Shown here in pieces: positions 27,184 through 59,136 of a stretch of 64,000 nucleotides of DNA; position 1 is the stretch's first letter, and every line of letters begins with the position of its first letter. Below the pieces are notes generated by a model. It worked only from the letters and a program-made list of their open reading frames with translations. It made no database searches and had not been told where the DNA came from. Source of the DNA: Parietichytrium sp. I65-24A (lineage: Eukaryota; Sar; Bigyra; Thraustochytrida; Thraustochytriidae); NCBI GenBank assembly GCA_012862575.1, contig BLSF01000045.1, positions 238,154-302,153 of the forward strand. The letters are read 5' to 3'. Both the position numbers and the translations under genes were made by a program.

Positions 27184-28884
27184 TCATTCTAGCTCCTGGA
27201 TCAATTGCTTCTTTGCAATCCAGATTCGGCCGAGATCGTCATGCGTGGGAATTCGGTCAAACACCGCGAGGAGCCTCTGTAGTATGATCGCAAGGAACCC
27301 GCTCGATGTTGGAACAGGAAAGATCAATACGCCCACAAAAAGTGGCCCAAGAATGGACATCCCGAACGCGTCAGCGATGCACAGGGAAACCGCCCACCCA
27401 CAACAAGTGAAGAATAACACTTGAAGGACTATTGTGGTCGCTATCGGATCGGAAAAGTTCCAAGCATTCACCACTTTCTCCAGTAGCGTGGCGACCATCC
27501 CGACAAGATCAGCGGCCTGGTCAAACTTGCGGGCGAGCTTTGCGAGTCTTTGTATGGTACTTAGCTTGGCGTCTGGATCTCTGTCGATCTCATCATTGAA
27601 CACGACCCAGTTTTCGTTCTCGTGCGCCACCTTTTTAGAGAGAACACAAAGCACGGCAACCAAAGCAAAGAAGCAGAATGGAATCGCAAAGCTCGGAATG
27701 TACTTGGCTGCGACCAGGGTGAGGGCGCAGACGCCACCAGAGAGCCACGGCTTCTCCCACGTCCTGAGGTAGAAGAGCATTACCACCGGAAGGCTGCAAA
27801 GCATTTCCATCAGTGCGGTCTCAATGCGAGCAGCATTTCTCTTGAGCTCGTTCACGCTTTGAAGAATTTCCTGTGGCGCGCTCAAGCTTCGGACCGTGCT
27901 CTCCTTATCAGGTTTATGACGCATATGCTTGGAAATGAACCTTCGGTTCTCTAAGTACAAAGGCCAGATCAGCTTCGAAGATTCGAAGAGCTCCACTTCG
28001 TGTCTCATGGTCAAGAATGCAGCCTCGTCAAAGAATTCTCTGTCAAAGCCTGTTCCCATGGATTTCCGATGCCCTGGCACACCCTTCTGGACCAAAGATG
28101 GGTATAGAACGTAGACTCCCGTCCGAGCCGATCTCCCCCCGCGATCCAGCATCGCAAAGTACGGCACAACAACGCCTCCCATGGACTTGTCCTTGTGAGA
28201 CAGCAGCGACGAGCTGAAAACTTCGATGCAGAACGTTCCCGTAATATCGGTGATGGGTAAGCGGACCTCCATCTCCCAAACAAATGCACTCCCCCCTTGT
28301 TGAAACGCCACGGGCGAACGGATCGTTTCGTCCTCCACGGTCAGCTCAAAGTAAGCCTTTGTCAGTGCTTCGCAAGTGAGCGCCTTTACCCTGACCTTGA
28401 GCTGTCCGATTCTTTTCCTCTTCAAAAGCCCGAGCTGTTCGTCTGTTTCGCCGCACAGGCCAAGACGAGCCAGGTGTCCGCCAAGCAGCGGATGAGACTT
28501 GCTGGAGTCCTCCGCATCCTTCGGCTCCTCCTGCTCCTCGCCCTCCTCGGCTTGCTCGCGAAAGTACCTATTGTAGGCCTTGTCCAGTACGCTGCTCTCC
28601 ACGCTCTTGAGCCCCTGCTTGAGCCGCGACCGCCACTTGTCCCGCGTGTCGGTCCAGTCGAGCTCAAACTTTTGCCGCAGCCGCTCCCGTCCGAACTCAT
28701 CCTGATCCTGATCCTGATCCTGATCCTGATCCTGATCCTGATCCTGATCCTGATCCTGATCCTGATCCTGATCCTGATCCTGATCCTGATCCTGATCCTG
28801 ATCCTGATCCTGCGCTGGACTTGCTATCCACAGACAGCCCTCACTGCCAGTGGCTTCGACAGCTCGAAAGCACGACAGTACCAC
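27184..28884 (-). CDS. MCTP-like C2 and multi-pass membrane protein
   Basis: Resembles multiple C2 and transmembrane region proteins, ER-anchored tethers at membrane contact sites. From the visible 5' edge, a (Asp-Gln)19 tract encoded by a CAGGAT hexamer is followed by a charged helical segment. A C2-like beta-sandwich comes next (GQLKVRVKALT, AYFELTVEDE, WEMEVRLP, GTFCIEVF). The C-terminal half has two hydrophobic hairpins (after EMLCSLPVVMLF and around TTIVLQVLFFTCCGW), separated by a LARKFDQAADLVGMVATLL helix. This arrangement matches the MCTP C-terminal (PRT_C) region. Only one C2 domain is seen and its calcium-binding Asp loops are not evident. The first in-frame codon is GTG at 28884, after a stop. 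No ATG precedes the C2 domain, so a 5' exon is probably missing from this model. Confidence 0.8.
   Translation of the reverse strand: MVLSCFRAVEATGSEGCLWIASPAQDQDQDQDQDQDQDQDQDQDQDQDQDQDQDQDQDQDQDEFGRERLRQKFELDWTDTRDKWRSRLKQGLKSVESSVLDKAYNRYFREQAEEGEEQEEPKDAEDSSKSHPLLGGHLARLGLCGETDEQLGLLKRKRIGQLKVRVKALTCEALTKAYFELTVEDETIRSPVAFQQGGSAFVWEMEVRLPITDITGTFCIEVFSSSLLSHKDKSMGGVVVPYFAMLDRGGRSARTGVYVLYPSLVQKGVPGHRKSMGTGFDREFFDEAAFLTMRHEVELFESSKLIWPLYLENRRFISKHMRHKPDKESTVRSLSAPQEILQSVNELKRNAARIETALMEMLCSLPVVMLFYLRTWEKPWLSGGVCALTLVAAKYIPSFAIPFCFFALVAVLCVLSKKVAHENENWVVFNDEIDRDPDAKLSTIQRLAKLARKFDQAADLVGMVATLLEKVVNAWNFSDPIATTIVLQVLFFTCCGWAVSLCIADAFGMSILGPLFVGVLIFPVPTSSGFLAIILQRLLAVFDRIPTHDDLGRIWIAKKQLIQELE
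28699..28812. repeat. Hexanucleotide repeat (ATCCTG)19
   Basis: Nineteen perfect copies of ATCCTG (CAGGAT on the minus strand). Read on the minus strand it encodes a poly(Asp-Gln) tract at the N-terminal side of the MCTP-like protein. The perfect uniformity suggests recent slippage; each unit also contains a CAG that could serve as a splice acceptor. Confidence 0.95.
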
Positions 28885-29807: not shown

Positions 29808-30962
29808 TTAAACGTACATTGGGTTCTGGTTGCTCACTACGGAAGCGGGCTGGGCAACCATGGCCCTCTGCTGCTGGCGCTTCTTGTACATGGTTGCAAG
29901 CAAAGCTGCACCGATGACGCCTCCGGCGATTCCCACACCCGCACCAACTCCAGCAGGAACCGAGGAGGTGGAGGTGCTGTCGAGATCTGTGTCTACTTCG
30001 TCACCTGCAGCGTAGGTTCCGCTGGAAGGGATGCACTGAGAGTACCACTCGCTCTGGTAGTTACATGTGTTTCCTGCAGGGCAGCAAGTAGCTCCGCTGT
30101 GAGACTTGCCTCCGCACTGGTTCCAGACCTTGTTCGGGCAGTTCGCCACAGGAGCCGGGGTTGGGGTTGCGCCGCCAGTCACTGGAGCCGGGGTTGGCTG
30201 TGAAACTGGGCTGCCGCCGCCTCCGGTGCTTCCCCCTCCGACACATCCGTCAGTTCCAGCAGTGCACGTAGTGTAGGTAGCCTCAGATGGTCCAACGAGG
30301 TACTGGGTTGATGGCATTTGTCCGGCATACACTTGACGGTATTGGGCCGCAGACGAAGGCAAATGGCTGATGCCCGAAATAGCAACGAGAGGGCTTGGGC
30401 GGGTTGGAGCAGCGCTGGACTGGATCTTGACGTCTGCACATTGGACGTAGAACTCAATGTTGCTCACCTGCTGGTGAGCGGTCCACTCCCAGCGGAGAAC
30501 GCAGTGGTCGCAAGCTGGAAGGTTTGCAGGGATGAGAGCTTGGAGAGTCGACTCATTTGGTGGAGAGATAGCGTTGGCGGCAGCTCCGCATCCTGGAAAG
30601 GAAGCAATCTTGAAAAATGCAGAAGGATCGCAAGCTTCGTTGGCCGACTTTCCTTCGCACGAGTAACTGATGTAAAGATAGCAGTCTCCTGGATGGGCGG
30701 CGGCGAGGCGGACCTGCACAGGGAGAGTTTGCCCTGCGGTGATGGTGGTGTACTGCCCAGGAGTGGTGTAGTCGTGGCACCTCATGGAGTTTGCCGAGTA
30801 GCTTCCCGCAGGTCCGTTGATGGTGTAAACCGGCTCGCGCTGCCTGTAGCTGATGGTGTTCCCGTCCACATCTGCGCGCGGCACAGGCGAAATAAGCTGG
30901 CCGTGGCCATTTACCTCGGCGAGAAGGGCAAAGCCCAGAACGGCGACAAGCTTGCTGAGCAT
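29808..30962 (-). CDS. Membrane-tethered LPMO-like protein with CBM1
   Basis: A putative copper-dependent lytic polysaccharide monooxygenase acting outside the cell on cellulose or chitin. 384 residues from a true ATG. The signal peptide (residues 1-19) ends just before His20-Gly (GHGQLISPVPRA), so the mature N-terminus would be the histidine-brace His. His90 (AAAHPGDCYLYISY) is the likely second brace ligand. Phe171/Tyr172 lie in the family-typical end motif NIEFYVQCAD. A Gly/Ser/Pro/Thr linker leads to a CBM1 cellulose-binding module (about 275-311: NQCGG, CCPAGNTC, YSQC). Unlike fungal LPMOs, a transmembrane helix follows (about 337-358, VGAGVGIAGGVIGAALLATM) with a basic cytosolic tail ending in NPMYV. 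The CAZy family was not resolved (AA16/AA11/AA15-like). Confidence 0.88.
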   Translation of the reverse strand: MLSKLVAVLGFALLAEVNGHGQLISPVPRADVDGNTISYRQREPVYTINGPAGSYSANSMRCHDYTTPGQYTTITAGQTLPVQVRLAAAHPGDCYLYISYSCEGKSANEACDPSAFFKIASFPGCGAAANAISPPNESTLQALIPANLPACDHCVLRWEWTAHQQVSNIEFYVQCADVKIQSSAAPTRPSPLVAISGISHLPSSAAQYRQVYAGQMPSTQYLVGPSEATYTTCTAGTDGCVGGGSTGGGGSPVSQPTPAPVTGGATPTPAPVANCPNKVWNQCGGKSHSGATCCPAGNTCNYQSEWYSQCIPSSGTYAAGDEVDTDLDSTSTSSVPAGVGAGVGIAGGVIGAALLATMYKKRQQQRAMVAQPASVVSNQNPMYV

Positions 30963-33702
30963 CGTCTTACAAACTGTGTGGTTGCGAATGTATGGAGCTG
31001 GTTTTGACTTCCTTTGTTCGTCTCAAGTTCAAGTTCGTGTCTTGCTGTTTGGTGTTTGTCGATGATCCTTTTTTGACCAACCTTGGCAGGACTCAAACAT
31101 GTCATCGGAAGGATGAAGTGTGAACTGACAGCACATAGGACATGCTATTGGAGCAACAAATCGTGCCACAGTGCAAAGTCATGATCTGATATCCTTTTCT
31201 TTACGCCCGGTCATTGATCAATGATGTTTAATGGCACAGCTCTGTATAGGTCGACTTGACAGGTCCAGGATGTGCTCCACAAATTCCCCCCCGTTTCGGC
31301 ATCAGGGTTGGTTTGCACATTCACCGCCGACTCTCGCTGCTCCACACAAGAAATCAGTTTTTGCGGGATGGTGGGGTTGATTGGACGTCACCGGATGAGG
31401 GGGAAGTTGCTCATTTGTAGTTGCGATCCCAGAGAAATATTGCGCAACCTTTGCGAATGCACTCTTCCGCTCAGGTCCACCTTTCCTGTCCCTTTAGCGC
31501 ATTTATAGCGAGATGGGTACGACGAAAGGTCATTCAGAGAAAACGGTCACGCATCGCCACCTTGGAAGGTTGTTTCGAATTTTCGAAATTGAACGTGCGC
31601 ATCTCTTTTGGCACACAAATCCCGTTTCCGGGCAATGCATGGTATGCATGGGTTCATGGCTCACGCCAACTTTTTCACTCGCTCGAAGCGTTCCGCACCT
31701 CCTAACCCGTCCGTCTAGATACCGGTAGGCCCCGAAGGTGCACACTGCCTGCGTGCACATCTCGACGGAATGAGACCAACCTTACAAGGACGCTTAGCAG
31801 ATCCTACGCAACGCAATCGTCTCCTAACCATTTGGGATGCTAATAGTCGCTACCGCACGAGTATAGGCAAGTGAGCCTGCGAGTGTCTTCGAGTTGGACT
31901 CACCGATTCATCTTACGATTATAATAATCCATCGACGACTGTTGTGGAATGAATTGTGCCGAGGCCTTGCGAGGGAGGGATTCAAACCAATCTTGGCTCG
32001 TCTCAGGAGCTTTATCGCCCGCCACGCGGATCTTAGACAGGGATTGACTCTTGGGTGTGCATCTGGCTCGTGGAATTGAACACCACGATGTGCGCGGGAC
32101 ACGAAACATTTAGAGCGAATTCGCATAACTTTGCCCTCAGCCTAGGCTCTGACTGTTAAAATAGCGAGGCATGAAGGCACTCACAGTCAATCTTCATACC
32201 AGGCATCGGAGATATGAGTGCCTCAGGCAAGACAAACTCTCGCAATCGGCGGAAGACTTGTTTGGCGTTCGCTTTCTTGTTGGTCGTTATTTGGTGTTCG
32301 GGCATGCCAACATGTGAACTCGCGCGAACTGCTCTCTTGAATGGTTGATTGGCGCCTCACTCACTCCGGCCTCTACACGACCCTACGATTATCCATTTCG
32401 TTCGTTGCTCCTCGCTCCAGCAACTGTTCTCAGGAGTAGCTGGTGGCACGACACTCGATATCAAAACCAACCACGACGTTGCATACTCCCTAAGCCCCTC
32501 CAGTCCGTCGCGTCCCCCTTTTCGATACGCAACGAAAAAGGCTTCTTCACTCACCCCCGAACCGGCGCTCCAGAGGCCGTGCCCATGATGGGCTTGCGCG
32601 GAACTAAGGCACAATGCTAATTGTGCGCGCTCACATCTTCTCGCATGCAAATCACAACTTGCCAAGGTAGTGCTGAAAGATCGCTGGCACAAGCTTGTGC
32701 CACTTTAACGCCGCGCGCGACGGCTCAATTGCGCTGACTTGATTCAATGCCGCCATGCCATCGTGAAAATCCGTCACTCACTCTCGAGCCAATGGCCTCT
32801 GTGAAATCTGCGGAATCTGTGGACGTTCATGCTCATCGAGTTATGTGTCTCGCGCTAGCTCGACGCTACTACCCTACTCTACTGGCTAGCTGATCTAGTA
32901 GAGCTTGGAACCGGATCTTTTAGATGCAAACAAATAGCGACGGAGCTAGCGTGGCAGCTAAGGGAGGGTGTAACCAACCCCCTCCTTCTCGCCAACAGAG
33001 CGAGCATTGATCGCGCCAAGTCTCAAAAGTAGGGAATGATGATAATCAGATAAAGATAAAGATCGCCGATGGTTGGCGCAGGTATCTTGACGCGTTCTGA
33101 ATTCTGCAAATGAAGCGTTGTGACAGCGGACAGAATCCCTGGCTTAGATCCAGTGATGTGGAAGGTAAGCCTGGGCGACGACACAAAAAAGACAATTTAG
33201 AGTTTTAGGGTACGAGCAGTTGGTTTTGCAATAAGATGGAAAGGAAAGGAAAGATCCGGCTTGAGGTTGAGATCGTTGCGAGCACTATAGCGAAAGTTTG
33301 CGCGCTCCACCATCGCGTGACAAATGGACGACATGGCAGTGCTTTCTCACTTGAGCTTAACGACAGACATTGCTGCTAGCAAATTACACGAGTTCTGCTC
33401 TGAGAAAAGAGCGACACGAGTACACAATTCCATAATGGGCAGAGAGAAGAGCCCCAAACAGAAAAACTGCGTGTGAATGACATTTTTTTCGCTTTTGCTT
33501 AGAAGGGCTCTTTTTTCAAACAAATAAGCTCTCTTTATGGTATCTCAGCTGTGGATCAAAGGCAACGTGAACGGAAAATTTGGGAGGGGGGGGGGGGAGG
33601 GGGTTGGAAGAGTAGAAGTTGTTGGGGTGGAAGAAGCCGGGGTGGTCGAAGGAAATGTTGAAAGCGCAGAGGATGAAGATATAGAATAGACGATCCAAGC
33701 AC
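30963..33702. other. 2.7-kb intergenic region
   Basis: No gene supported on either strand. The left end is the LPMO promoter side and the right end the 3' flank of the Rho GTPase, which holds a near-pure G run at about 33583-33603 on the plus strand. A GAATTC-centred motif lies near 33097. Confidence 0.5.
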
Positions 33703-34647
33703 TCAAAGAAGAGCGCAGCCACTGTCTTTCTTCGTCCGAGGCTTACTGGCTTTGAATCCTCTAATGGCGATGCGGATGGCTGTGTCAAATACGTCTTTAA
33801 GGCCTTGACCAGTGAGCGCCGAGCATTCAAGATATTGCAGTGCACCAATATTGTTCTTCATTCTCTCTCCGTCGAGATTGTTCAAAGGCTGCTGCCCAGA
33901 TGCCACTAGCCGTTGTATGGTTTCCGCATCGTTTCTCAAGTCGATCTTGGTTCCAACCAAAATGAATGGCGTGCCTTTGCAGTGCTGCTGGATTTCCGGG
34001 AACCACTTTGATGTTATGTTTTGAAACGATGACCTGCTCACCACAGAAAAGCACATGATGAAGACATGGGTGTCTGGGTAGCTAAGAGGACGCAATCTGT
34101 CGTAATCCTCCTGACCAGCAGTATCCCAGAGACCTGAACCGATGAACATCGCCAACAAGAATTTCACAAATAACACACAAAATTACTGTGTCAGCACGCC
34201 GCGCAAGGCATAAAAGCCAACCCTCTCTGCCGTTCTTTCATCCGTTAACAAATAAGGACTCGAGACGATAATGGTCATCACTTTCTTCCAAAGGCGGTGC
34301 CTCGCAATCCCCGAGCGCGCCGAGGATCTCCTTCCCGCAGCTCCAAGATGAGACGCTACAAGCCACACCCTTGAAGCTACCTAGCAAGACCGCGACCCAA
34401 CCCAGCACCTGGGCAGCGACAACCACGACACCTCTCCCTCTCTATCTCTATCTCTTCTCCCGCGCGCCAGAGGCAGCAACTTACCTAGGTTGACAGGCTG
34501 ACTATTCACGTCGATGAGCGCGCTATAGTTGTCAAATACTGTTGGGACATACTCGGTCGGGAACGAGCCTGTGGTATACGAAATAAGCATGGACGTCTTG
34601 CCCACCGCACCGTCACCCACGATCACGCATTTTATGTGTTTCTGCAT
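33703..34647 (-). CDS. Rho/Rac-family small GTPase, two exons
   Basis: A GTP-switched regulator of actin and polarity at membranes. Exons 34485-34647 and 33703-34133 are joined across a 351-bp intron (donor CTAG|GTAAGT, acceptor TTCAG|GTCTC) that splits a Gly codon. The product is 197 residues. G1 is GDGAVGKT (11-18), the switch I Thr is residue 36 (VPTVFDNY), switch II is DTAGQE (58-63), G4 is TKID (116-119) and G5 is ECSAL (157-161). A Rho insert helix (about 121-145) is present. The C-terminus is basic and ends in CALL, a geranylgeranylation box. The intact Gly and Gln of the active site mean a normal, hydrolysing GTPase. Closest in feel to Rac/Cdc42; the subfamily cannot be settled by eye. 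Confidence 0.96.
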
Positions 34648-34739
34648 GGTACTGAACTCGGCCTCCCACTCTCCGACGGACTCTCTCGCTCCCTCTCTCT
34701 CTCGCTCTCTCGCTCTCTCTCTCTCTTCACTGCGCTCGG

Positions 34740-34773
<34 letters not shown>

Positions 34774-34823
34774 CACGCTCCCACGCACACGCAGACCCTT
34801 TCTCTCGCACCTCTGTCAGTCAA

Positions 34824-36095: not shown

Positions 36096-38735
36096 TCAGA
36101 CTTCGTAACCGAGTCGTCTGGGATACAATTGGTCCAAGTTGTCCGCCAAAGCGCTCTCGAGCTCCGCTGGAAACTGCTGCGCCACGTCGTTGATGCAGAA
36201 CCAGCGGTAATCGCCTTCACGAAGGCGAGCAAACGCCTCGTGTATAGCCGTCACCCCACCGCCGGATGTCAGGGCGAAGTAAAGCGCAGATTCCTTCTCC
36301 ACATTCACATCGAAATGCCAGGCCAACCAATTCATATACACAAAGGGGAGCCACACACTTTTAGAGGTTCTCCAGCGTTCCTCCGCCGTCCGTTCAAATT
36401 CCGCGCGCATGGGACCTTCCACTAGTTGTCTAACAAGTTCTTTGTTCAAAAATACCCCGTGGTGACCCACCATGTAAATAAAGTCAAATCGGATCCCATA
36501 CGTGTCGTGAATCATATTTGCAACGTTCGCGACTTTGCGCTCCCAAGTTCCGTGACCTGCCCGCGGCGCTCTGGTCCCACTCAGATGTACCTTGGGGGAC
36601 CACACCTCGTTCCCCTTACGGTCTATTCGGTCCATCAGATCCTCCACCCGGAGATCCTTCGTAAGCAGAAAATCGTCATTCAAGTACAGATAACATTTCG
36701 ACAAACCTGGAATGCGGTGCAGCTGAGATTCGATGGCGCACGAATTTGCCGTTGGAAGCTGTGTAGATGGAGATGAAAAGATAGTCCGATGAGACACAAA
36801 TTCGACTTCAAACTCGCCTTGCGGCGAGTTTCCGAACCAAGAGGGCACCTGATCAGCTGTCACAATCCACACCTTACGGATCCACGGCGCGTGTTTGGCC
36901 AAGCTCCGAAGGGAGTACCGCAAGGTGGACGCACGGCCAAAATCGCGAAACCGGCTATCCTGCCGGCCTCCGCTTTTCCCGCGAGATTCTTCGGGAATCA
37001 CCTCAGCCTGGATCTCCTGGTGGGCAGGATCAGAGCCATTTACCCACGTGTAGACAACGTCGATCCGTACTTCTCCGGAGCTCTCGTCCACGCACGACGT
37101 CACTGCTGGGTCCAGTTTGGGCCGTTGGCCAGCTTTCGCGCGATCTTTTAGGGTATCAAGATACAGCTTGAAGTGAAGCTCTTCTCGTGCGTCAGCAGCT
37201 TCCTGCCTCGCAATTTTTCGCGATTGGTTCAGCTCTACGGCACGATTCGACTTTGGTTTAGATGCCCCATGTCGCGCGCCGTGTCCGAGGCGCTCTTGAC
37301 AGACGCGGTGACACCCGACACCTCGCAGATCGCAGCGCTCCCAATCCTCCGGCGCGCACTCTACGCCGTACTTTTGCGAGATCCTTTGCCTCACCTTCAC
37401 AAATAGCTCCTTGTTTTCCTGAATTCCCACGGCGCTGGCAGACCAGGACTCATGGTCGTGTGGTTGGTCGATAGTGAAGCAAGGGCCGCGCAGCACCACG
37501 TACTCCATGCCAGCACAGAAGAGCTCAAAGTGCAACGTCTGCTTGTTGAACCCCCTCCCTTGAAATTCTTCGGGAAAGGAGAACCTGCTACTCTCGTCGC
37601 TGCGGATTATAAAGTATGGCTCGAACATCACCTCGTACTGCAAGAGGTATGGTTCTTTCCCACGAACCCAATCGTTGTGCCGGAAAGGGCCGCTATAACT
37701 TCTCTTCCCCTCATGCATTGGCCTAGCATCTCCGTGTTGAAAAGCGTGAACGATTTTCTCAAAGGACGAGGGATACTCTACTGCGCTCGACCTCGCCATT
37801 TCGAAAGAAGCCAGGCAAAACACTATACCTGCTCCACGATTGTTGTTTCCCCCAAACCCAAAGTCGACGATTGCCGTGCGCAACTCGTCCGCCATCTCTG
37901 ACATGGTGCCTCCGAGCCAGGCGTCAACATCCACGTGCAACTGAAACTCGCAGTCTTCCCTCGCCCCATTCTTCGCTACGTTCCTCATCACGTTGATGGG
38001 GTAGGCGATGGACGAGGCGCTTTTCACCACATGTATGTCAGCCCACTTTAACACGTTTGCGCCTCCCCCTTGAACCCAAATTTGCAGAGCGGAATACTCA
38101 TCCGCCGAAGAAACAAAAATGGCAGCAGACACTGGGCCACTCCAACGGCCCACCATTTTCTCGAGCCGTGCGAGGCGATTTATTCCAAGCTGGGTGATCA
38201 GGCAAATGGGAAACGCCATCTCGCTACGCGCCCTCTGAGATCGTCTCCAATTGTTCTGCACGTCAAACTGATTGCCTTCGCGCGACTGCTGGGAAGGAAT
38301 CACGTTTGCCGCCTGCACGTGCTCGGTGGTTTCATGAACTTTTTCCAAAACCAAGTCCGAGTGTTTGGGCCCCGAAATCACGTCTTCTTGATGCACCTGA
38401 TGCCGATTGCCTTTTTGGCTAATAGAAGTCTTTCCCGCCACATCATCAGTTTGTTCGATAGCAATTTCAGCGATTTCATCGCCATTGCTGAGTCCTCCCT
38501 GGTCCAACAGAAACTGGTTGCTCTCATCAAATGAATACGCCTCAAGCTCGGGAGTCGCGTTCCGGCAGCTGACTTCACGGTCAAAATTATATAATACAAC
38601 CCCAGCGGCGCCAACAAAAAAGCACGCCCAAAACACAAACCGCTGGCACTGAACCTGTCCACAACGAGTCAGCATCGCCCTCCCGGCACCGCCGCGCCCA
38701 GCCAAATCCCAACTTACCTTCCGCCTATGCTTCAT
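36096..38735 (-). CDS. GT49-Stealth fusion, type II membrane enzyme
   Basis: A two-domain Golgi-type glycan enzyme. Exon 38718-38735 (MKHRRK) is spliced to 36096-38654; the 63-bp intron (GTAAGT..GGACAG) is in frame, so the unspliced reading stays open. The 858-residue product has a signal anchor at about 11-28. Residues about 153-415 match GT49 (LARGE/B4GAT1-like glucuronyltransferase): FPICLITQLG, RWSGPVSAAIFVS, YPINVMRNVA and a DVD metal motif (248-250). Residues about 535-858 are a Stealth domain, the family of GlcNAc-1-phosphotransferase and microbial capsule phosphotransferases: IDVVYTWVNGSD (537-548), RFRDFGRASTLRYSLRSL (574-591), YLNDDFLL (663-670) and a VGHHGVFLNKE block. The joining of both is unusual. 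It may both extend and phosphorylate a surface or lysosomal glycan; this is inference. Confidence 0.92.
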   Translation of the reverse strand: MKHRRKVSWDLAGRGGAGRAMLTRCGQVQCQRFVFWACFFVGAAGVVLYNFDREVSCRNATPELEAYSFDESNQFLLDQGGLSNGDEIAEIAIEQTDDVAGKTSISQKGNRHQVHQEDVISGPKHSDLVLEKVHETTEHVQAANVIPSQQSREGNQFDVQNNWRRSQRARSEMAFPICLITQLGINRLARLEKMVGRWSGPVSAAIFVSSADEYSALQIWVQGGGANVLKWADIHVVKSASSIAYPINVMRNVAKNGAREDCEFQLHVDVDAWLGGTMSEMADELRTAIVDFGFGGNNNRGAGIVFCLASFEMARSSAVEYPSSFEKIVHAFQHGDARPMHEGKRSYSGPFRHNDWVRGKEPYLLQYEVMFEPYFIIRSDESSRFSFPEEFQGRGFNKQTLHFELFCAGMEYVVLRGPCFTIDQPHDHESWSASAVGIQENKELFVKVRQRISQKYGVECAPEDWERCDLRGVGCHRVCQERLGHGARHGASKPKSNRAVELNQSRKIARQEAADAREELHFKLYLDTLKDRAKAGQRPKLDPAVTSCVDESSGEVRIDVVYTWVNGSDPAHQEIQAEVIPEESRGKSGGRQDSRFRDFGRASTLRYSLRSLAKHAPWIRKVWIVTADQVPSWFGNSPQGEFEVEFVSHRTIFSSPSTQLPTANSCAIESQLHRIPGLSKCYLYLNDDFLLTKDLRVEDLMDRIDRKGNEVWSPKVHLSGTRAPRAGHGTWERKVANVANMIHDTYGIRFDFIYMVGHHGVFLNKELVRQLVEGPMRAEFERTAEERWRTSKSVWLPFVYMNWLAWHFDVNVEKESALYFALTSGGGVTAIHEAFARLREGDYRWFCINDVAQQFPAELESALADNLDQLYPRRLGYEV

Positions 38736-45191: not shown

Positions 45192-48100
45192 TTAGGCCAC
45201 GCTGGCAAGGGCCGCCTCTGCCTCGTCCTGAGCGGAATGCATCTTTGCCGCCCAGCGCTGTTGCCACCAGAGTAGCTGCTTCTCGTACTGCAGGACTCGG
45301 CTTTCCAAATCGAGCTCTTCGTCATCTTTTTCGATATCGACAATGGCATTTGTAGCATCATCGCCTGCCCCTGCGCTTGCTTTCGAGGCGTTGGCCTGCT
45401 TCCTCCGATGCCCAACCTTTCGCTCTAACTCTTCGATGCTCTTCTCCATTTTGTCGCGCTCATCTCTAATCTGTTGAATTCTACCTTTGTGTGCTAACGA
45501 GGCTGAGTCCAAAGTCATCTTGTTAAGTTGCTTCCACTCCTCTTTGAGCTCGGCATTCTCCTTCCTCATCGCGCTTGCACGCTGCAACAACAACGGACCT
45601 CGATCATCAGCCTCTAATTTGGCTTGCTTGTTTTTCATCTCGGACTTGAGATAAGAAATTGCTTCCACAACTTTTTCGTGTTGAGCCCTCACCATTTTGA
45701 GCTTTCCAGCACTAGAGTCTGTGCTGGACTCGAACGTCTCGAGAGAGCCCAAGTCGTCTATCTGCTTTAAGAGCTTTTCACATTTTCTTGCCGTACTTGA
45801 GCCCAGCTCTTCCAATTCCAGCATTTTTTTGAAGGACTTCATGTTTTCAGGCAAAATACTGTCAATCGAAACGGAGAACCCTTCTTCAATAGATTCCAGC
45901 TCACGCAATTCCATTGCCAACTCCTCATTTTCGATTTCGAGATTGGCTATTGCCAGTGCAGTGTTGTAGATCTTCTCTTTCAGCTCAGAAATTGTCTTCA
46001 ACTGCTCCTTGTCCTCGCTGTTAATGAGCTCCAATACCTTCTTAGCGTCGTTTTGCTGTGTTGAAATCTCGCTGACGCGCTCTTCTGCTTCAGCCAAGAC
46101 ACTTTCAACGTCTAAGCGCTTGTCGTTGAGAACCTTGACGTGAGTGCGCAACTCGCGAATTTTTTCTAGTCTCATCATCAATCCCCAATCCCCAGATTTA
46201 CTATTGTTAGTAAGACTGTCCGCACGATCGCTTATTGAATCCCTCCCTTCCAAATCGTCGAGTCTCGGGATAGATTTGCTACTTTGCGCAATCGTGTCCT
46301 GAAAGTGCACTAGAAATCCGGCTCGAGCGCCAAAACATCCACGGAACCCGGAAAACAAATCTTTTTTGGACGCACTGCTGTCTTCCCCGGTCAACCGAGG
46401 CCCAAAAAAATGGTTGTCTGCAGCCTTCGCACTTTCTTCCGGGGACTCCTGAAGGCCTGAGGTGGCGACACCCTCTTTGCGAGATTGGTGGAGCACACCT
46501 TTTTGCGCCACACTCCTGCACTCGGCGAAAGTCTTAGACAGAGATGCTTTAATCGCGTCTGCTCGATCTACGGGGTCTTCAGCGAGTAAACTTCCAGCGA
46601 TGATAGCGCTAAGCACCGCGGGAACTGGTGCAGCCTGTGCAGTCAATTTCCCTGCAGGTTTGGTCGTCTTGATTTCTTGGACCTCATCCGCATTCGGAAA
46701 ATGTTGAGCCTTTTCCTCTGTGTTTTTATGGCTTTCAGCGATCACTTCATTCGCTGCCACCTCTGGTTTGTGGGAAGATTCTTGGGTGGACTCCGAGCTG
46801 GCGATTTGTTCTGGCTTAAAATTCGTCTCTGTACCACTCACTTCCCCGGGACTTTGGATGTCACCCAAGGCGCCTTTGTTAGATTCTGTTGAACTTTCTC
46901 TCGAAGCATCCCCTGTCACAGTCGAAACGCTGCCTTCATCTTGCGCCAGGTCATCGGCTCGCATTTCGGGTGATTCCTCCACAGGCTTCACCACGTTGCT
47001 CGAATCATGGCCGGGAGCACTTGCGCTTGACGTGGGTGGCAAAGTTTCCGGCTGAATTGGAAGGCTCTCAGATACGCCGTGATTTTCATTTGCAAGATCA
47101 TGAGACGGCGAAGCTCCGTCTGCTATTTTTGCCCCTTCGCCAATCACAGCGGACGAATCCTTTCGACTTAGCGGCTCTTGCGCTGGCTGAGTGACATCTA
47201 GAACAGGGACGGATCTTCCAGGACGAGAGATGGCAATATCGGCTATCCGGGCCAACGTTAACGCTTGGATGGCGTATTGATTCAGATTTGTGTAAACGGT
47301 GGATAGTCGCTCTGCATGCGACTCGCACTCTTTCTCGCTCTTTGCGTTCTCGACACTCGAGCCGACCTCTTCCAAAATTGTTAGCATCATTGCGAGGCTA
47401 CTATTTAGCCCTTCACGCAAGTGCAAGGAGCATCTCTCATATTCTTTTTGTTGCAGAATAGAAACGAATAGATTCTCGATCGATTGAGATTTGAGCAGAT
47501 TGAAGACGTGAAGCGTTTTCTCGCGCATGTTTTCGATCTGCTGTAGCCCCACTTTTAAAAAAGCTGAATCGCGAACCACCAGCGCCTTGCTAAGCTCCAA
47601 ACGTCGAACCTCCATGTGCGCCGCGTTTTCGTCTGCAGCAGCCGCACCACCAAGGCCTTCTACAACGGCGCGTAGACAAGCAACCTGCTCCTCGAGGCCT
47701 TCCTTCAGGCTGGTGTAATTCTGGAGTTGCCCTCTTGTATCCGCCAGGAGTTCAGTGACAAGCAGCTTCTCCTCCTTCAAGCTCTCAATTCGAGCCTGAG
47801 ACTCGCAAGAATCGATAGCGTAAGCGAGTAAATTTTCTAGCTTCTCGCCCCTAACAACTAGTTCGTCAATTTCCTTGCGAGTTTGAGAGACATTACCCGC
47901 AACTAGCTCAAGACGAGAATTGGCCTCTTCAAGTTCCTGTTCTGGACCTCTGGACATTTGCTCCATCAACGTCTCAACCTGCTGTTTGGCTTCGTTTGCG
48001 ATCATACGCAGCACCTGTATCCTCTCTTCGCGCACGATGTCGTCCTTGTTGGGAGCATCCAGACCAAGTATTGATGCATCTGCGACAAAAGGGCAAACAC

Positions 48101-51100
48101 GGCAGAGTGATTCGGTTGTGCCTTGGTCACCGATTGCGCGTGAAAGGTCTCCGCTCGCTTGCTCAAGTCTAGTTTTGAGAGTAGTGGAGATGCTCTTTAG
48201 CACCCCATTCAGCAGATCTTGTATCTGCCCGACATCTTCAGTCGCCACTTTCCGGGCTTCCACTGCGAGCGAGACAGTAGAGCTCAAGCATGGATCTGGA
48301 TTGACAGTAGTGCTGTCAAACAGCCACAATCGAGACGTATTTGTGGACGAATCCTGAAATGCGATACGTAGAGCAGACTGACTCTCCAATGCTGCCACCC
48401 CGACCTCCCGCTTTTTGTCTTTCAGTAGGCTGATGATGGTCATTTCTGACTTTTGCAGGCGCTCCCAATCTGCATATCGCTTACTACACTCTTCTTCAGC
48501 TCGGCGCAGCTTTTCTTCGACAGTAGCTTCCGAACTACTAAGGGACTTGCGGAACTCCGTTAGGGCACCAAACGTTTTGGAGGAGACGAGAAACCTATGC
48601 TGTTGCTTTATTTCTTCAAACGTGGCCAAAATCGTGTCTTGGGTGGAGAAATGGCTCTCAAGAGCAGCATTGATTGTGGCAGACGGTTGAAGTTCGCTCA
48701 TCGCCAGAACCGAGTCAAAAAGGTATTCCAGGGTCCGCAGTTCTGATTTAACAAGCGTCTGTTCAGCGCTAAGGATGGCAAAGCTGATCAGAGACAAATC
48801 TTGCTCACAAATGATCCGATTCACAGAGAGCTCGTCGAGGTAAAGCTTTTCAGCATCTTTCCTCCAGATCTTGCGTTTTGTTCGAGCCTCTTCTTGAAGG
48901 GCCGCAATTGCTTCTAGCTGCGTAGCAAAATTATCAAACACCTCTGGTTTGAATCGGCCGGATTTGAGACGAATGCGCTCCCAAGCATCAAAATAGCTCT
49001 CTAAATCCCGCTTGGATTGCGCATCAAGGTCTTCTAGCGCTTTGTGGTTCTCGAGTACAGTGATTCTCGCAGCGCTAATAGCTCTATCCAGGTTCCTTTG
49101 TTGTCCACTTAAACCTTTTAAAGAGGTTTGCACCCCTTCTATCTTCGCCGCAATGTCTTTGAGCAGCGCGTTTTTGTGTTCGATCTGGGCCCGAAGCGTC
49201 GACTTCACCTTGTTAGCTAGCTTTAGTGTCCGAAACCGGTACTGCGCTTCTTTCTCGCATTCTGCGAGAAACAAATCATCTTTTCCTTGGCGAGCGACTT
49301 CTTTGATTGGCTTCAGTGCAGAGTAACTCTCAAAAATTGCGGATACAGACGAGAGCAATACCCTAATGTCAATCGAGAGTAAATCCCACTCTTTTGGCTG
49401 CACTTTGTCAGTGTCAGACTGTTCAGATTCTCTCTGTCCCGGCAACTTCTGGTCGGCGTTTAGATTGTTGCCTTGCTCTTGGATTGTCTCACCATTGCCC
49501 GCAAGGTACTCTTTCTGCTCTTCCTCGCACCTCTTTGCCAGCTCGTTCAGATCCGCCACTGCCAATATACTTAGTTCTTGCTCGGCAATCCTGAGCTCTT
49601 CCTTTGCTGCGTTAATTTGTTGGTCGTGAAGCCCAATTTCATCCCGTATTCTCGCCACATAGGCGAGCTCTTGCTCCATCTCTTGTTCGAGTTCAAGGTA
49701 CTCCGCCATAAGATTTGAGTGGTGCTCGATTTCACCCTTTTCGGCCAAGAAATTATTGTTGAGGGCAGAGTCGAATTTGCCCTCCCGGTCAGTCTTGGCG
49801 TTTTTCTTCTCTTCTAGAGAAGCCTTAGACTGTTGAACTCTCGAAAGAGCTCTCTCTAAATCTTCCTTGAGCGATGCGATTTCTTTCTCCAACGTCTGAA
49901 TTCGTCGCCGTGCAGAGTCATGCTGTTGCTGAAGTTCCCCAAGTTTGCTGCTATTGTCCCTGGACTCCTGCCCTGCCGCATGTGCTGCAAGCGATGCCTC
50001 CAATTTCTTCAGGTCCCCTTGTTGCTGGATTTCGCGCCTTGACTTCCTTGCCTGTTGTCTGATCTCCTTTTCCTTCTCGCTCACCTTCTTGGCCAGATTT
50101 CGGTTTCTCGTTAATAGGATGGCCACCTCGTCTTCTATAGCTTGTGCTTCAGCAGAAAGCTTCCGTCTTTCCTTGGCTCTTCGGAGCTTCTCCTTGTGCC
50201 TAGCCCTCTTCAATTTCAAAGCTTCTTGCCGAGCGATCTTGTCCTCAATGTTCCCGTCTGCCGCTGCTTCCTCGGTGTGGGGGTGGTCGCCATTCTCCTC
50301 GGCAGCAGCCTTATTCTGAGTCTTTGCTTCATGCGCCAATCTGATGGCAGCTTCCACTTGGGCGGGGTCCTTCCCTGCCAAGATGGCGTCCAGCCGCCGC
50401 ATCTCAGTTTTGCAAGCTTTGAGAAGCTCCCTGTCCCCAGTGGCTTGGATCGTAATGATACAATTGTTCATCTCCTTTTTATTGTTGCGAAGCACAGACT
50501 TGAGATCTGTAAGCTCTTGTTGCCTCTGATTCATAATCTCGAGAAATTTGGTGGTCTTCCTTTCATATGCTGCCTGGATGCTCTTCACGACGGCCTCCAC
50601 GGCCTCGTCGTCGTCATCGGCCTTTTCTTCCTCCCCAGAGAGCTGGTCCAGTCGCTTGAGCCTAATGTCAAGCATCGCCTGCTTCTCCTCAAGCTGGCTG
50701 ACCAAAATCTCATTTTGAACTTGGAGTTCGTGCTTTTTTACTTCCGAGTCCATGAGCTGGTAGCCACGGAGGCCCCCTTGTTTTTTGGTCACGCCGCTGT
50801 GCTTTGCAGCGTTGGCATCGGCGCTGGCGTCGTCCTCACCGGCGATGGACAGCGCAGCGTGGGCCATGGCTCGAGACTTGGCCTTGAGCTCCTCGTAAAA
50901 GCTGTTAAGCGCGTTAAATTCGCGCAATTCCGCGTCCAGAATCTGTCCCTCGACTCCTTCGCGAATCTGCTCGAACTCCTCCTCGGCCTCCTCGGTCTTC
51001 TCCAAATGGGCATTGAGCGTGTCAATCTCGTAGCCAATCTCGCCGCTCTTCCGCTTGATCCAATTCCCGAACCCGCGGAACGCCGTCTGCCGCGACAGCT

Positions 51101-51749
51101 CCGTGAACTTGGCCACAAGCTTGTGCAAAGTGCCTCGCGACTCCTCGATCAGCTGCTCGCGCTCCTGCAGCGAGTATCGCGCGGAGAATTGCACGCCATC
51201 GGCCAGCGACTCCATCAGCGCCTGCAGAGCCGCATCGGCGTCCATCTCGCTCTGGTCCAGCGACTGGTATGTCTGTGCGCCCGATGTGCCAGCCAACCCC
51301 ATCGCACTGCGCTCGTCGCCCCACGTCGCAGCCAGCGCAGCTAGCCGGTCTGAAGCTGCCACGAGCGCCTGCTCTGACTCCTGCACGCGGCCATAGTGCT
51401 CCTGCATGCTGGCCCTCTGTTTCCTGCCCCTTCTGCCCGTCCCATTCGCATTGCCGTTGTTGTTATTATTGTCGGAGCCGGCATTGCCATCGTCGTTTTC
51501 GCCGTCGCTGTCGTCGTCCGCGAAGAGCTTGGCGTGGATGGCGGAGCGGTGGATGCGCTGGCGGAAGCGGTCCAGTCGGCGCGCGCGAGCTTGTTGCACG
51601 AAGTTTGTTCTCTTTCTCACGGACTCCAGAACGGCCAGGCGGCCAGAAACCTCGCCGAGCCCTGCATGCTTCCTGCCCTTTGCACTGAGGTATCTGCTAC
51701 CTTTTGAGCTGGAGAAACTGCGATTGCGAGACCCAAAGCGATCCGACAT
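45192..51749 (-). CDS. Giant coiled-coil protein, 2185 aa
   Basis: One uninterrupted exon of 6.6 kb. The ATG at 51749 is chosen (MSDRFGSRNRSF); the frame further upstream opens only at GTG. The N-terminus is Ser/Arg/Lys-rich (about 1-60), then an acidic and Asn-rich patch (NNNNNGNANGTG) near residue 100. Heptad-rich, Glu/Lys/Leu-rich coiled coil runs for most of the chain, broken by a Ser/Pro/Glu-rich disordered section near 1480-1700. Coils resume to the C-terminus, which ends LLWWQQRWAAKMHSAQDEA. No motor, kinase, SMC or membrane domain was seen. It is probably a structural protein of centrosome, basal body, flagellar rootlet, Golgi or nuclear matrix, but no family is recognised. Its end is 122 bp from the NHL gene stop. 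Confidence 0.88.
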   Translation of the reverse strand: MSDRFGSRNRSFSSSKGSRYLSAKGRKHAGLGEVSGRLAVLESVRKRTNFVQQARARRLDRFRQRIHRSAIHAKLFADDDSDGENDDGNAGSDNNNNNGNANGTGRRGRKQRASMQEHYGRVQESEQALVAASDRLAALAATWGDERSAMGLAGTSGAQTYQSLDQSEMDADAALQALMESLADGVQFSARYSLQEREQLIEESRGTLHKLVAKFTELSRQTAFRGFGNWIKRKSGEIGYEIDTLNAHLEKTEEAEEEFEQIREGVEGQILDAELREFNALNSFYEELKAKSRAMAHAALSIAGEDDASADANAAKHSGVTKKQGGLRGYQLMDSEVKKHELQVQNEILVSQLEEKQAMLDIRLKRLDQLSGEEEKADDDDEAVEAVVKSIQAAYERKTTKFLEIMNQRQQELTDLKSVLRNNKKEMNNCIITIQATGDRELLKACKTEMRRLDAILAGKDPAQVEAAIRLAHEAKTQNKAAAEENGDHPHTEEAAADGNIEDKIARQEALKLKRARHKEKLRRAKERRKLSAEAQAIEDEVAILLTRNRNLAKKVSEKEKEIRQQARKSRREIQQQGDLKKLEASLAAHAAGQESRDNSSKLGELQQQHDSARRRIQTLEKEIASLKEDLERALSRVQQSKASLEEKKNAKTDREGKFDSALNNNFLAEKGEIEHHSNLMAEYLELEQEMEQELAYVARIRDEIGLHDQQINAAKEELRIAEQELSILAVADLNELAKRCEEEQKEYLAGNGETIQEQGNNLNADQKLPGQRESEQSDTDKVQPKEWDLLSIDIRVLLSSVSAIFESYSALKPIKEVARQGKDDLFLAECEKEAQYRFRTLKLANKVKSTLRAQIEHKNALLKDIAAKIEGVQTSLKGLSGQQRNLDRAISAARITVLENHKALEDLDAQSKRDLESYFDAWERIRLKSGRFKPEVFDNFATQLEAIAALQEEARTKRKIWRKDAEKLYLDELSVNRIICEQDLSLISFAILSAEQTLVKSELRTLEYLFDSVLAMSELQPSATINAALESHFSTQDTILATFEEIKQQHRFLVSSKTFGALTEFRKSLSSSEATVEEKLRRAEEECSKRYADWERLQKSEMTIISLLKDKKREVGVAALESQSALRIAFQDSSTNTSRLWLFDSTTVNPDPCLSSTVSLAVEARKVATEDVGQIQDLLNGVLKSISTTLKTRLEQASGDLSRAIGDQGTTESLCRVCPFVADASILGLDAPNKDDIVREERIQVLRMIANEAKQQVETLMEQMSRGPEQELEEANSRLELVAGNVSQTRKEIDELVVRGEKLENLLAYAIDSCESQARIESLKEEKLLVTELLADTRGQLQNYTSLKEGLEEQVACLRAVVEGLGGAAAADENAAHMEVRRLELSKALVVRDSAFLKVGLQQIENMREKTLHVFNLLKSQSIENLFVSILQQKEYERCSLHLREGLNSSLAMMLTILEEVGSSVENAKSEKECESHAERLSTVYTNLNQYAIQALTLARIADIAISRPGRSVPVLDVTQPAQEPLSRKDSSAVIGEGAKIADGASPSHDLANENHGVSESLPIQPETLPPTSSASAPGHDSSNVVKPVEESPEMRADDLAQDEGSVSTVTGDASRESSTESNKGALGDIQSPGEVSGTETNFKPEQIASSESTQESSHKPEVAANEVIAESHKNTEEKAQHFPNADEVQEIKTTKPAGKLTAQAAPVPAVLSAIIAGSLLAEDPVDRADAIKASLSKTFAECRSVAQKGVLHQSRKEGVATSGLQESPEESAKAADNHFFGPRLTGEDSSASKKDLFSGFRGCFGARAGFLVHFQDTIAQSSKSIPRLDDLEGRDSISDRADSLTNNSKSGDWGLMMRLEKIRELRTHVKVLNDKRLDVESVLAEAEERVSEISTQQNDAKKVLELINSEDKEQLKTISELKEKIYNTALAIANLEIENEELAMELRELESIEEGFSVSIDSILPENMKSFKKMLELEELGSSTARKCEKLLKQIDDLGSLETFESSTDSSAGKLKMVRAQHEKVVEAISYLKSEMKNKQAKLEADDRGPLLLQRASAMRKENAELKEEWKQLNKMTLDSASLAHKGRIQQIRDERDKMEKSIEELERKVGHRRKQANASKASAGAGDDATNAIVDIEKDDEELDLESRVLQYEKQLLWWQQRWAAKMHSAQDEAEAALASVA

Positions 51750-54700
51750 GGCGTGCACCTTGGGTTCCGGTTGCGGAGACTGTTCCCGGTCTCAAGTCCA
51801 ATCTGCTCGAGCTGCGCGGGTATGCAGCTTTGTCGGAATGCGGTTTGGTGAGGTTGTGGTCGGGTATGAGCGTGGATTGGACGCAATCGTCGTCCGATGT
51901 GTTTAATGCGATTTGGCTGCGCAGATAAAATAAGATAAGATAAAATGAAATGTGGCCGAATGCAATTCGATTCAATGCGATCGCGATCTGTGAGATCCGT
52001 GGGATCCGTGGGAGAGGCTTGTGATGTCCAATTGAGAGGGCTAGTTTCTTCCTCTCACCCTCTCACACTCTCACCCTCTCCCTCACACGGGCGACCGATA
52101 CAAAACTCAGGCTCAGCTTATGCGCGCGGCAACGGCTCCTGTTCTGGTACTAGTACCACACTCGCCTCGTGCCGTCTTGTCCCGTTGACTGACACGCAAC
52201 TGTTCACCGCTCCGATCACTAACAGACTCTGCAAATGCGTCGGCCCGAGAGCAGCCACATGCCGCCCCGGGGAGGAGGAAGGAGGAAGGAAGAAGGAGGA
52301 AGAAGGAGGGAGGGATGGTACAAGGACGCTACGCGATGGCGTACGCCAAGGTGTACGCGCGGACTCTTTCGGGTGGAAGTGACGTGCTCGAGAGTTGTCC
52401 GGTGGGAGGCTATGTAAGTGCTAGGTTACCTACCGGTACAGTTTTCCGGCTCAGAGATACTGGGCCATAAGCTTACGTGTGCAGCTCTCTCGATCGTTTT
52501 GATTGTGAATGAATTGTTTCGACAGGCCGCGAAGGATGTGGAGCCCAGGTTTGGAAGTAAAGCAGGAGGAGTTTAGGATTGGGAGCGAGAGAGAAAGTCG
52601 ATTAGCGAGGCGATCCGACTTGCAATGCTGCAATTATATGAGTGTGATACCGCAGTTCCCACCGGAAGCGACCCAGTACTAGTACTTGTGATTCACTCTC
52701 ACTCAGTGTTTCGGGTTGTCGTCATGATAGATATGTAAAGGACCTGCATATTGCAGGTAAATCTTATTCATCTCGAATGATTTGGTAGTTTTTTTGCCCA
52801 AATTGGTCCAAATTGTTGCAAACCCTTCCACTTTAGTATTTCAGGCTGTCATTCTAATAATTACACAAAAGACCTGTATTGTGCAGGTAAATCTTATTCA
52901 TCTCGAATGATTTGGTAGCTTTTTTGCCCAAATAGTCGCAACAGCAAGAACCTTTACTATTTCGGGCTGTCATTCTGATAAGTACACAAAAGACCTGTAT
53001 TGTGCAGGTAAATCTTATTCATCTCGAATGATTTGGTAGCTTTTTTGCCCAAATAGTTGCAACAGCAAGAACCTTTACTATTTCGGGCTGTCATTCTGAT
53101 AAGTACACAAAAGACCTGTATTGTGCAGGTAAATCTTATTCATCTCGAATGATTTGGTAGCTTTTTTGCCCAAATAGTTGCAACAGCAAGAACCTTTACT
53201 ATTTCGGGCTGTCATCCTGATAAGTACACAAAAGACCTGTATTGTGCAGGTAAATCTTATTCATCTCGAATGATTTGGTAGCTTTTTTGCCCAAATAGTT
53301 GCAACAGCAAGAACCTTTACTATTTCGGGCTGTCATTCTGATAAGTACACAAAAGACCTGTATTGTGCAGGTAAATCTTATTCATCTCGAATGATTTGGT
53401 AGCTTTTTTGCCCAAATAGTTGCAACAGCAAGAACCTTTACTATTTCGGGCTGTCATCCTGATAAGTACACAAAAGACCTGTATTGTGCAGGTAAATCTT
53501 ATTCATCTCGAATGATTGGTAGCTTTTTTGCCCAAATAGTTGCAACAGCAAGAACCTTTACTATTTCGGGCTATCATTCTGATAAGTACACAAAAGACCT
53601 GTATTGTGCAGGTAAATCTTATTCATCTCGAATGATTTGGCACTATTTTGGACCAAATAGTTGCAACTCTTCTTCCTTCCACTTTAGTTGTTGGCTAACA
53701 GTGGTGGAGTATTTCTGGAGGGACCCATGGATTTTGCTTCATTCCGGGACCTACCGGTGAGCAGTTAGTTGGCTCAGAGGCTCACTCACACTTTCAGTCT
53801 CAGTGTGTGGCGAAATGGCGTGTGCATGATGACGGAACACGCCTTCGAAAGGACAGAGCCGCAGGAGAGCTGCTGCCAGGAATGGACTTCCTGTTAAAAT
53901 AAGACTTGGAGCCGGGCGGCACTCGTTTCAGAAACGTTCGGCTGCGAAGGACCTGGACCTTGGAGAAAGAGAGAGTCTCGCGACTGTTCATGGAACAGAC
54001 AGTCGCTGTCAATCAAAGCATTCAGCTGACCGCCTTGCACAGGAAAAACGGCCTCGCGTGGCATTTAGAGCTTGGAATCTGAAATTCAGAATGTCTCATC
54101 AAGAGCTTGTGGTGCCCGTGCCAACGCCTCTGAAAACATCGACGATCATGAGCCTTCCTGATATCCCTCGGTTGATTGGTTTCAATGCGAAGACCACCCA
54201 CGTTCCAAGCACGTTGCGTCCAGAGAAACTCTACCCTTTCGTCACTATCGAACCTAGCGCATCGTGACGATTATGAGCAATTTGAAGCAGCAATCGCGTC
54301 TCCGGCTACTGTTTCTGTATTTCCTGGACCGCAACTAGGTATCGAAACAGAAGAGGAAACGAGTCAACGCAGCTCCTTAAGATACGCTTGAAGAAATCGA
54401 TAAAGGAAACGCGCGCTCGTGCAATTTTTCGCAAGGCCCAACCCCAGCATGTGACGTGCTTGGTTCCCTCCACAATGATTTCGATAAACTCTTTGTTGTT
54501 TCGACAAAATACGATGGTCAAAATACCAGACCATCGTCACTCCTAGGCAGGCATAGGAGATTCCAAAGCCAGCAACCATTATGTAATTCATACCAATCAA
54601 TACCACTCCTAAGCAAACCCTACGGCGATGCTTCTAATCACCAGAATAGGCGTACTCTCAGCAAATACAATAATACCCGCTACCGGTACTGTACTCGAGG

Positions 54701-57691: not shown

Positions 57692-59136
57692 CGTCCCTTG
57701 CGATGCGCGAGTCTGCGACCTTTCGTCTGGTCCTTCCGATCGAAACGCGCTACCGCCGCGCGTCTTATCACTGACTCGCTGCTTTGCTCCGAGTTCACCT
57801 TGCCAGATACCACCCAGGCTTTCGCGCCGTGAAATAGTGAAATAGGCGGATTTTGGTACGCTGCCGGATAGCCACTAGCTCTCTCTTATAATAAAAAGAA
57901 AAGCCTCTGCTATTGTTCTCCTACGACAACGACAGGCAGTGTTCACTGAAGAAAACAAATACATTGTCTCAGGTTGCGCGAAAAGCTTCGCGCTGCCTTT
58001 TATCGTGCATAATCAATGGCTGGCTAGCTGCAACTTGTGAAGTAGAAAGGGGACTCCAAATCGGAACGATTATCACGTGTCACATTCCTCTCTTGTTGCA
58101 AGCTGGCAGGCGCTTTGGCAGAGCTGTCGTCACCCATTCCTCCTTTTTCAAAACCTGATTGACTGTGTAAACAGTGTATTTGCGATCAATGAGCCATTCG
58201 GCTTTAAAATCTTTCTCAAGACGGAAAGACATTCCCATTCCGACTTCGCAAAATCAATTGATGGCACACCACGTGCCGCAAAAATACATGCACACTTATG
58301 TGTAATTCCAAACAATTCGCGAGCTTACCCCTCCCTACTGCAAGCCATAGCAGTCAATTCCACTTCCTAACGACATTCCTAACAATATCACTAATCGCTC
58401 CGCGGTGCGAACGGATCATCTTGAAACCCAAGACTCGGGAAACCTGTCGCCCGAAATTCGTCCCTCTTGTGGGCCACATCTCCCAACACTATAGTATCCG
58501 ATATGTCCATCGCTAATACCGGGGCAAACGTTGAGCGCAGGGATTGGACTAGCGCCTCTTACCAGAGACTAGTGCACTCACCTCTCACTCCCCACGAAGA
58601 GCCCGTAGGGACCATCAAGAGACGCTAACAACCCTACCGATCCCGCACTAGGCGCCAAGGTAGAGTCCGGGCACTCCTAGCGCAGCCTAATACGAGCATC
58701 TACGAGCACAGCGGTCCGCAGTTCTAGCAGTTCTAGTCCTCACAGTTGTGTTGGAACTGATAGAACTGATAGAACTGAGCCAACTGTGCAAGTGGCACGG
58801 GTACTCACAGACCGGCAGCGTACTCAGCGTACTCAACATACTAAGCGTACTCGTAACTGGTGGACTACGAAGGCAGCGAACGCAGCGAAACGTTCCCGCG
58901 TCAACGCAAGCGCGTGAGGGTCGATCGAGAGAACGCAGTTGAGACTTGGTTGAAACGCGGTTGAAACGCGGGCACGACCGCGTGTTTTGCGGTGGTCAGC
59001 GACCGAGTTCAGTTCAGTTCAGTTCAGTTCGGTTCGGTTCGGTTGGTCTTGTTGCCGCTGGTTCCGGTAATTAGATTCGTAGGTTTGGCGGATTGCGCAC
59101 GTCCACGGGGACGGGGACTGAGAGCTGCCTCGCAAG
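57692..59136. other. Divergent promoter region
   Basis: Between the DI-x-GA gene (-) and the LamG/TIG gene (+). It contains an AGTTC/GGTTC pentamer run at about 59005-59045 just before the LamG/TIG start, and short CTGATAGAA and GTACTCA repeats near 58755-58855. No gene seen. Confidence 0.55.

Follow-up and report, generated by a model that had tools for sequence, protein, structure and literature searches.

Does a single gene of this thraustochytrid encode both a GT49 glycosyltransferase and a Stealth phosphotransferase and, if so, might the two halves act on one and the same glycan? The question concerns a frame in the window, i.e., the whole 64,000-nucleotide stretch of Parietichytrium sp. 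I65-24A DNA analysed here, for which a preliminary description had proposed a GT49-Stealth fusion in that order. The coding sequence occupies positions 36096-38735 on the minus strand (879 codons plus stop), and is a single frame without internal stops encoding 879 residues. In a Pfam search, the product matched Glyco_transf_49 with 98.6 bits (cut-off 27, E = 5.9e-28) in two stretches, the better being residues 237-456, as well as Stealth_CR1 with 41.5 bits (cut-off 27.2, E = 1.1e-10) and Stealth_CR2 with 111.9 bits (cut-off 39.4, E = 2.2e-32). The two families are thus in one frame, and the proposed fusion and domain order were borne out. Matches to Stealth CR3 (12.5 bits, cut-off 24.2) and CR4 (16.8 bits, cut-off 27.4) were below the cut-offs. 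The Pfam list, which extended to E values up to 1, contained no GT8, Notch, DMAP-binding or EF-hand domain, and a search of NCBIfam yielded one match, far under its cut-off.

Near the 5' end of the frame is a putative 63-nt intron (GTAAGT...GACAG, 38655-38717, minus strand). Taking it out leaves the 858-residue "spliced" product of the preliminary description; because removal of 63 nt stays in frame, the fusion is independent of splicing. The two halves might instead belong to separate genes or transcripts, or have been brought together by misassembly, and be joined in one frame by chance; the single transcript spanning both halves is predicted from the DNA sequence. Against this, the stop-to-stop frames of 100 order-1 random windows reached 361 codons at most, compared with 879 here. 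Codon use, scored as the shift of synonymous choice towards that of seven further long frames in the window, was displaced from that of random synonymous codons both in the GT49 part (0.034 versus -0.032, sd 0.014) and in the Stealth part (0.030 versus -0.032, sd 0.016), and weakly so in the 100-residue linker (0.018 versus -0.030, sd 0.026). Moreover, the 879-residue product is devoid of methionine between residues 410 and 701, which leaves the CR1-CR2 part without a separate ATG start, and the 64-kb window contains no N. Separate genes or a misassembly are, we believe, very improbable; a chance frame or a pair of genes was rejected on the basis of frame length, codon use and the missing methionines.

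The domains are laid out as follows, all on the minus strand. The strongest hydrophobic stretch by hydropathy, residues 33-51 (38583-38639), comes after a short basic N-terminus, an arrangement found in type II Golgi enzymes. It is probably a single-pass type II signal anchor, which fits the earlier assignment as a type II protein, and the remainder of the chain would then face the lumen, presumably that of the Golgi. The GT49 domain extends over residues 176-456 or thereabouts (37368-38210). The linker (residues 457-556, 37068-37367) contains four cysteines (C460, C468, C475 and C479) and no methionine, and continues into a predicted long helix at 498-534, for which AlphaFold gave pLDDT blocks of 62-84. 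In the Stealth half, CR1 covers residues 557-574 (37014-37067) and contains IDVVYTWVNGSD (residues 558-569), while CR2 covers residues 602-702 (36630-36932), with R595 just upstream and the NDD motif at 686-688 within YLNDDFLL (684-691). The subthreshold CR3 (residues 759-804, 36324-36461) has H758/H759 at its start and R789 inside, and the subthreshold CR4 (residues 838-878, 36102-36224) includes CIND at 847-850, with N849.

In a search against solved structures, the GT49 half matched LARGE1 over residues 176-427 (E = 1.7e-14), with 29% identity over the GT49 part. A GT49 match had been anticipated within residues 150-415 of the 858-residue form, i.e., about 171-436 in our numbering, and this match, together with the Pfam match at 237-456, agreed with that expectation. 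The DVD motif that had been picked out previously is at residues 269-271 (37923-37931, minus strand), and HMMER, run with each half searched separately, aligned D269 and D271 with D563 and D565 in the DID of LARGE1; a MAFFT alignment was offset by two residues. These aspartates form the DxD motif of LARGE1 (PMC9746966), and mutants are reported to show that they are required for glucuronate transfer (PMC12514197). LARGE1 H708 was aligned with H426. The histidine three residues earlier, H705 (numbered by offset within the HMMER alignment), presumably a second metal ligand, was aligned with D423, and the aspartate of the LARGE1 sequence EADFEPY with a methionine. Because of these two changes the activity of the GT49 half, or its donor, may differ; that it is an active enzyme is plausible, and less certain than for the Stealth half. 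With AlphaFold, the GT49 half alone gave an unusable model (mean pLDDT 32.8), and in a larger construct, where the GT49 part was modelled without alignment depth, every block was below 65. LARGE1 did appear in the Foldseek list, at rank 26 (E = 1.6e-3) among other GT-A enzymes, which does not constitute independent proof.

Among solved structures, the Stealth half matched zebrafish GNPTAB (E = 1.4e-31), the fly homologue, human GNPTAB and CpsY. Key residues of human GNPTAB are described as R322, D408, H956, R986 and N1151, with H956 as the base (PMC11418123). In our alignments, D408 (of NDD) corresponded to D688 and R986 to R789. When full-length human GNPTAB or the fly homologue was aligned, R322 fell opposite R595; with zebrafish 7s6n and human 9bgg it did not, HMMER having put the gap at another place. 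H956 was paired with H759 in the GNPTAB alignments and in one further alignment, and the base histidine with H758 in the CpsY alignment and in larger alignments, so the likely general base is H758 or H759. These disagreements leave our confidence in the various explanations as it was, since a histidine and an arginine are present at the two sites whichever alignment is followed. A CIND motif was visible in the alignment to the fly homologue, and through it N849 would be the counterpart of N1151. Among 74 rows of bacterial Stealth sequences (74 of 95 segments passing a length filter, of 119), the residue of the window protein was kept in 73 at column 595, in all 74 at columns 688, 758 and 789, and in 58 at column 849. 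At the column of V761, by comparison, 49 of the 74 rows had histidine. The Stealth catalytic set of R, NDD, H, R and N is thus present as R595, N686-D688, H758/H759, R789 and N849.

An AlphaFold model of the Stealth half, built on 75 rows from an alignment of bacterial Stealth sequences, had pLDDT values of 70-97 in 29 of the 33 ten-residue blocks from residue 551 onwards. When this model was compared with the PDB using Foldseek, GNPTAB (E = 4.8e-19) and CpsY (E = 8.4e-19, target TM 0.84) were matched, and the model thus points to a Stealth fold. The Stealth domain had been called complete-looking; the catalytic residues and the modelled fold uphold this, whereas CR3 and CR4, being under the Pfam cut-offs, do not. 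What such a domain would add to a glycan also has to be restated. Stealth enzymes are described as using a UDP-sugar to donate sugar-1-phosphate, which creates a phosphodiester (PMC11418123), and by homology the product here would be a phosphodiester rather than the bare phosphate implied by the earlier suggestion that the protein phosphorylates its glycan.

We searched prokaryote genomes, viral contigs, phages and plasmids for relatives. The Stealth alignment matched many prokaryote loci, the best 80 of which were kept (79 distinct), and three viral records. Plasmids gave 47 records; among the 20 matches listed, all started at residue 502 at the earliest, so that only the linker and Stealth half were covered. 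The best-listed prokaryote loci, the viral loci and four plasmid loci, 86 in all, contained 126 Stealth-like frames, 27 of them at least 800 residues long. We scanned 54 proteins with Pfam, i.e., 53 chosen frames (including 22 of the 27 long ones) and the window protein. At a threshold of 0.001, CR3 was found in 48 and CR4 in 41 of the 54. Glycos_transf_1 (GT4) was present in 20 of the 54, which is not a natural frequency because the choice favoured long proteins, and GT49 in none of the other 53, the window protein alone having it.

A GT49 profile gave no match over the cut-off in any of four sets of prokaryote genomes (0/41, 0/398, 0/395 and 0/232; 1066 genome searches, with three genomes counted in two of the sets), an absence that is weak evidence because the 14 control genomes were likewise negative (0/14) and the sensitivity is unproven. 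Four weak partial matches (E up to 0.001) in prokaryote genomes were below the cut-off, and none of the three viral records had a match over it. Searches with the GT49 alignment produced 66 pattern matches in viral contigs and 73 in genome contigs, none of which was confirmed; the full protein gave no pattern match in viral contigs, and the phage collection contained no match to it. No relative with the same GT49-Stealth architecture was therefore found among the prokaryote, viral, phage and plasmid collections, and within these the pairing is new. In a tree of Stealth sequences, the end branch of the window protein (3.14) was too long for it to be placed, either as a bacterial transfer or in the GNPTAB lineage; of the sequences in the tree, the fly homologue was the most similar, at 54% identity over 136 columns.

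How does this architecture compare with known systems? In LARGE1 a GT8 and a GT49 domain are combined, and the enzyme synthesizes an alternating polymer (PMC9746966, PMC12514197). Like the protein described here, LARGE1 and LARGE2 have a GT49 domain with a DxD motif, and their two catalytic domains reside in one membrane-anchored Golgi chain (PMC9746966, PMC8478517), as may be the case in ours. They differ in that GT8 is N-terminal to GT49, whereas in the window protein Stealth is C-terminal to it. GNPTAB shares the Stealth catalytic core, with counterparts of the five key residues, but it also has Notch, DMAP and EF-hand domains and long spacers, all of which the window protein lacks, and it has no GT49 domain. 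CpsY and other single-domain Stealth polymerases have a similarly compact core, with a fold match to our model, but are bacterial and without a GT49 partner.

A likeness in domain order was found in actinobacteria (so identified from their record titles), where GT4 came first and Stealth last, in one chain, in all eight long proteins scanned singly, although these fusions are bacterial and have GT4 (Glycos_transf_1) in place of GT49. Because of them, a chain joining a glycosyltransferase to Stealth is already familiar from bacterial genomes. The capsule polymerases CslB and Cps1B are described as single chains in which a glycosyltransferase is combined with a TagF-like phosphotransferase (PMC5974469). 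They would resemble the window protein, for which this is a proposal by analogy, in making glycosidic and phosphodiester bonds with one polypeptide; they differ in being bacterial and in using a TagF-like domain instead of Stealth. Stealth itself is not new in protists, because a Phytophthora protein with all four Stealth regions (PMC6168125) and two Leishmania proteins with CR2 (PMC5498541) are on record. Among the papers listed in searches of the open-access literature, none was, judging by title and opening abstract, about a GT49-Stealth protein.

We propose that the product spans the membrane once in type II orientation, probably in the Golgi, and exposes two catalytic domains to the lumen. 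By analogy with LARGE1 and B4GAT1, the GT49 half would transfer one sugar, perhaps glucuronic acid or something similar, from a nucleotide-sugar in an inverting, metal-dependent reaction. The Stealth half would take hexose-1-phosphate from a UDP-sugar and attach it to a hydroxyl of the same glycan, creating a phosphodiester. If the halves acted in turn on one chain, a single round would leave a phosphodiester-linked cap or branch, while repeated action could yield an alternating phosphoglycan polymer, much as LARGE1 alternates two sugars. Our confidence in a bifunctional Golgi enzyme of this kind, from which one glycan would receive both a sugar and a sugar-1-phosphate, once or repeatedly, is evenly balanced; the idea is supported because both families are in one frame, the key residues are kept, a Stealth fold was modelled and precedents exist. 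Speaking against it are the two substitutions in the GT49 half, the subthreshold scores of CR3 and CR4, V761, the differing alignments at the base histidine and R595, the poor models of the GT49 half, and the failure to find a relative of the same architecture in the prokaryote, viral, phage and plasmid collections. The activity, the substrates, the action on the same chain and any polymerization are what we infer from these lines of evidence. Its stronger form, a Golgi polymerase of the type [sugar-hexose-1-phosphate]n in which Stealth would replace the GT8 half of a LARGE-type machine, is put forward only tentatively, as is the corollary that such an enzyme might be convergent with those capsule polymerases of bacteria in which a glycosyltransferase and a phosphotransferase share one chain.

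It is also conceivable that only one half is catalytic and that the other is a module for binding glycan or nucleotide-sugar, or for dimerization, e.g., an acceptor-binding domain derived from GT49, or the reverse. The replacement of H705 by D423 and of the EADFEPY aspartate by methionine would suit a GT49 half of that sort, and the divergence of CR3 and CR4 a Stealth half, but the DxD motif and PH histidine of GT49 and the key residues of Stealth have all been kept, and we regard this explanation as unlikely. Less likely still is that the protein tags glycoproteins with GlcNAc-1-phosphate for sorting to lysosomes in the manner of GNPTAB, with GT49 as an accessory. By E value GNPTAB proteins are the nearest solved Stealth relatives, and the best identity in the tree set was to the fly homologue, but the tree failed to place the window protein, whose spacers are short, as in bacterial Stealth proteins, and whose Pfam list lacks the Notch, DMAP-binding and EF-hand domains. 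The fly homologue, which has no DMAP domain, is reported to work on alpha-methylmannoside in vitro and yet to be inactive on the two lysosomal hydrolases tested (PMC11418123). The "lysosome-like" pathway suggested previously is thus poorly supported, and a plain lysosomal tagging enzyme was rejected on the basis of the missing domains and the result with the fly homologue.

If the bifunctional reading is right and both halves are active, a single eukaryotic polypeptide would form both phosphodiester and glycosidic bonds on the same glycan, extending the dual-enzyme principle of LARGE to a phosphotransferase. It would then be a testable candidate route to phosphoglycan synthesis in a protist, and could serve as a natural two-enzyme tool in the production of phosphodiester-linked oligosaccharides.

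Several other genes were seen in the window. The frame at 29811-31022 (minus strand) encodes an AA9/LPMO_10-like domain, then CBM1 and, by eye, a C-terminal hydrophobic stretch, and resembles a lytic polysaccharide monooxygenase anchored in the membrane. A large frame running to the window end (59122-63999, plus strand) has Laminin_G_3 and IPT/TIG domains and probably encodes a large protein that is secreted or displayed at the surface. Two frames on the minus strand had no Pfam match at 0.001: one of 2199 residues (45195-51791), charged and coiled-coil-like by eye, and one (27187-28884) that has hydrophobic stretches and, close to the N-terminus, a long repeat of the dipeptide DQ. At about 33703-34815 (minus strand), a Ras-family GTPase, which from its motifs we take to be Rac/Rho-like, is spread over two frames with an intron-like gap between them, and a condensin II CAP-H2 gene is also present.

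Among the bacterial and viral Stealth loci, a gene on an 8.6-kb plasmid of Halioglobus japonicus (L003, 2725-3653) was annotated as two overlapping frames and is located inside a small glycosyltransferase cluster, and a Stealth-like frame was found on a 230-kb IMG/VR contig (L086, 5992-6789). In L010, L012, L014, L016 and other actinobacteria, a Stealth protein of about 600 residues adjoins one of about 1000-1150 residues, and the long form of such pairs contained GT4 in 8/8 scanned singly.
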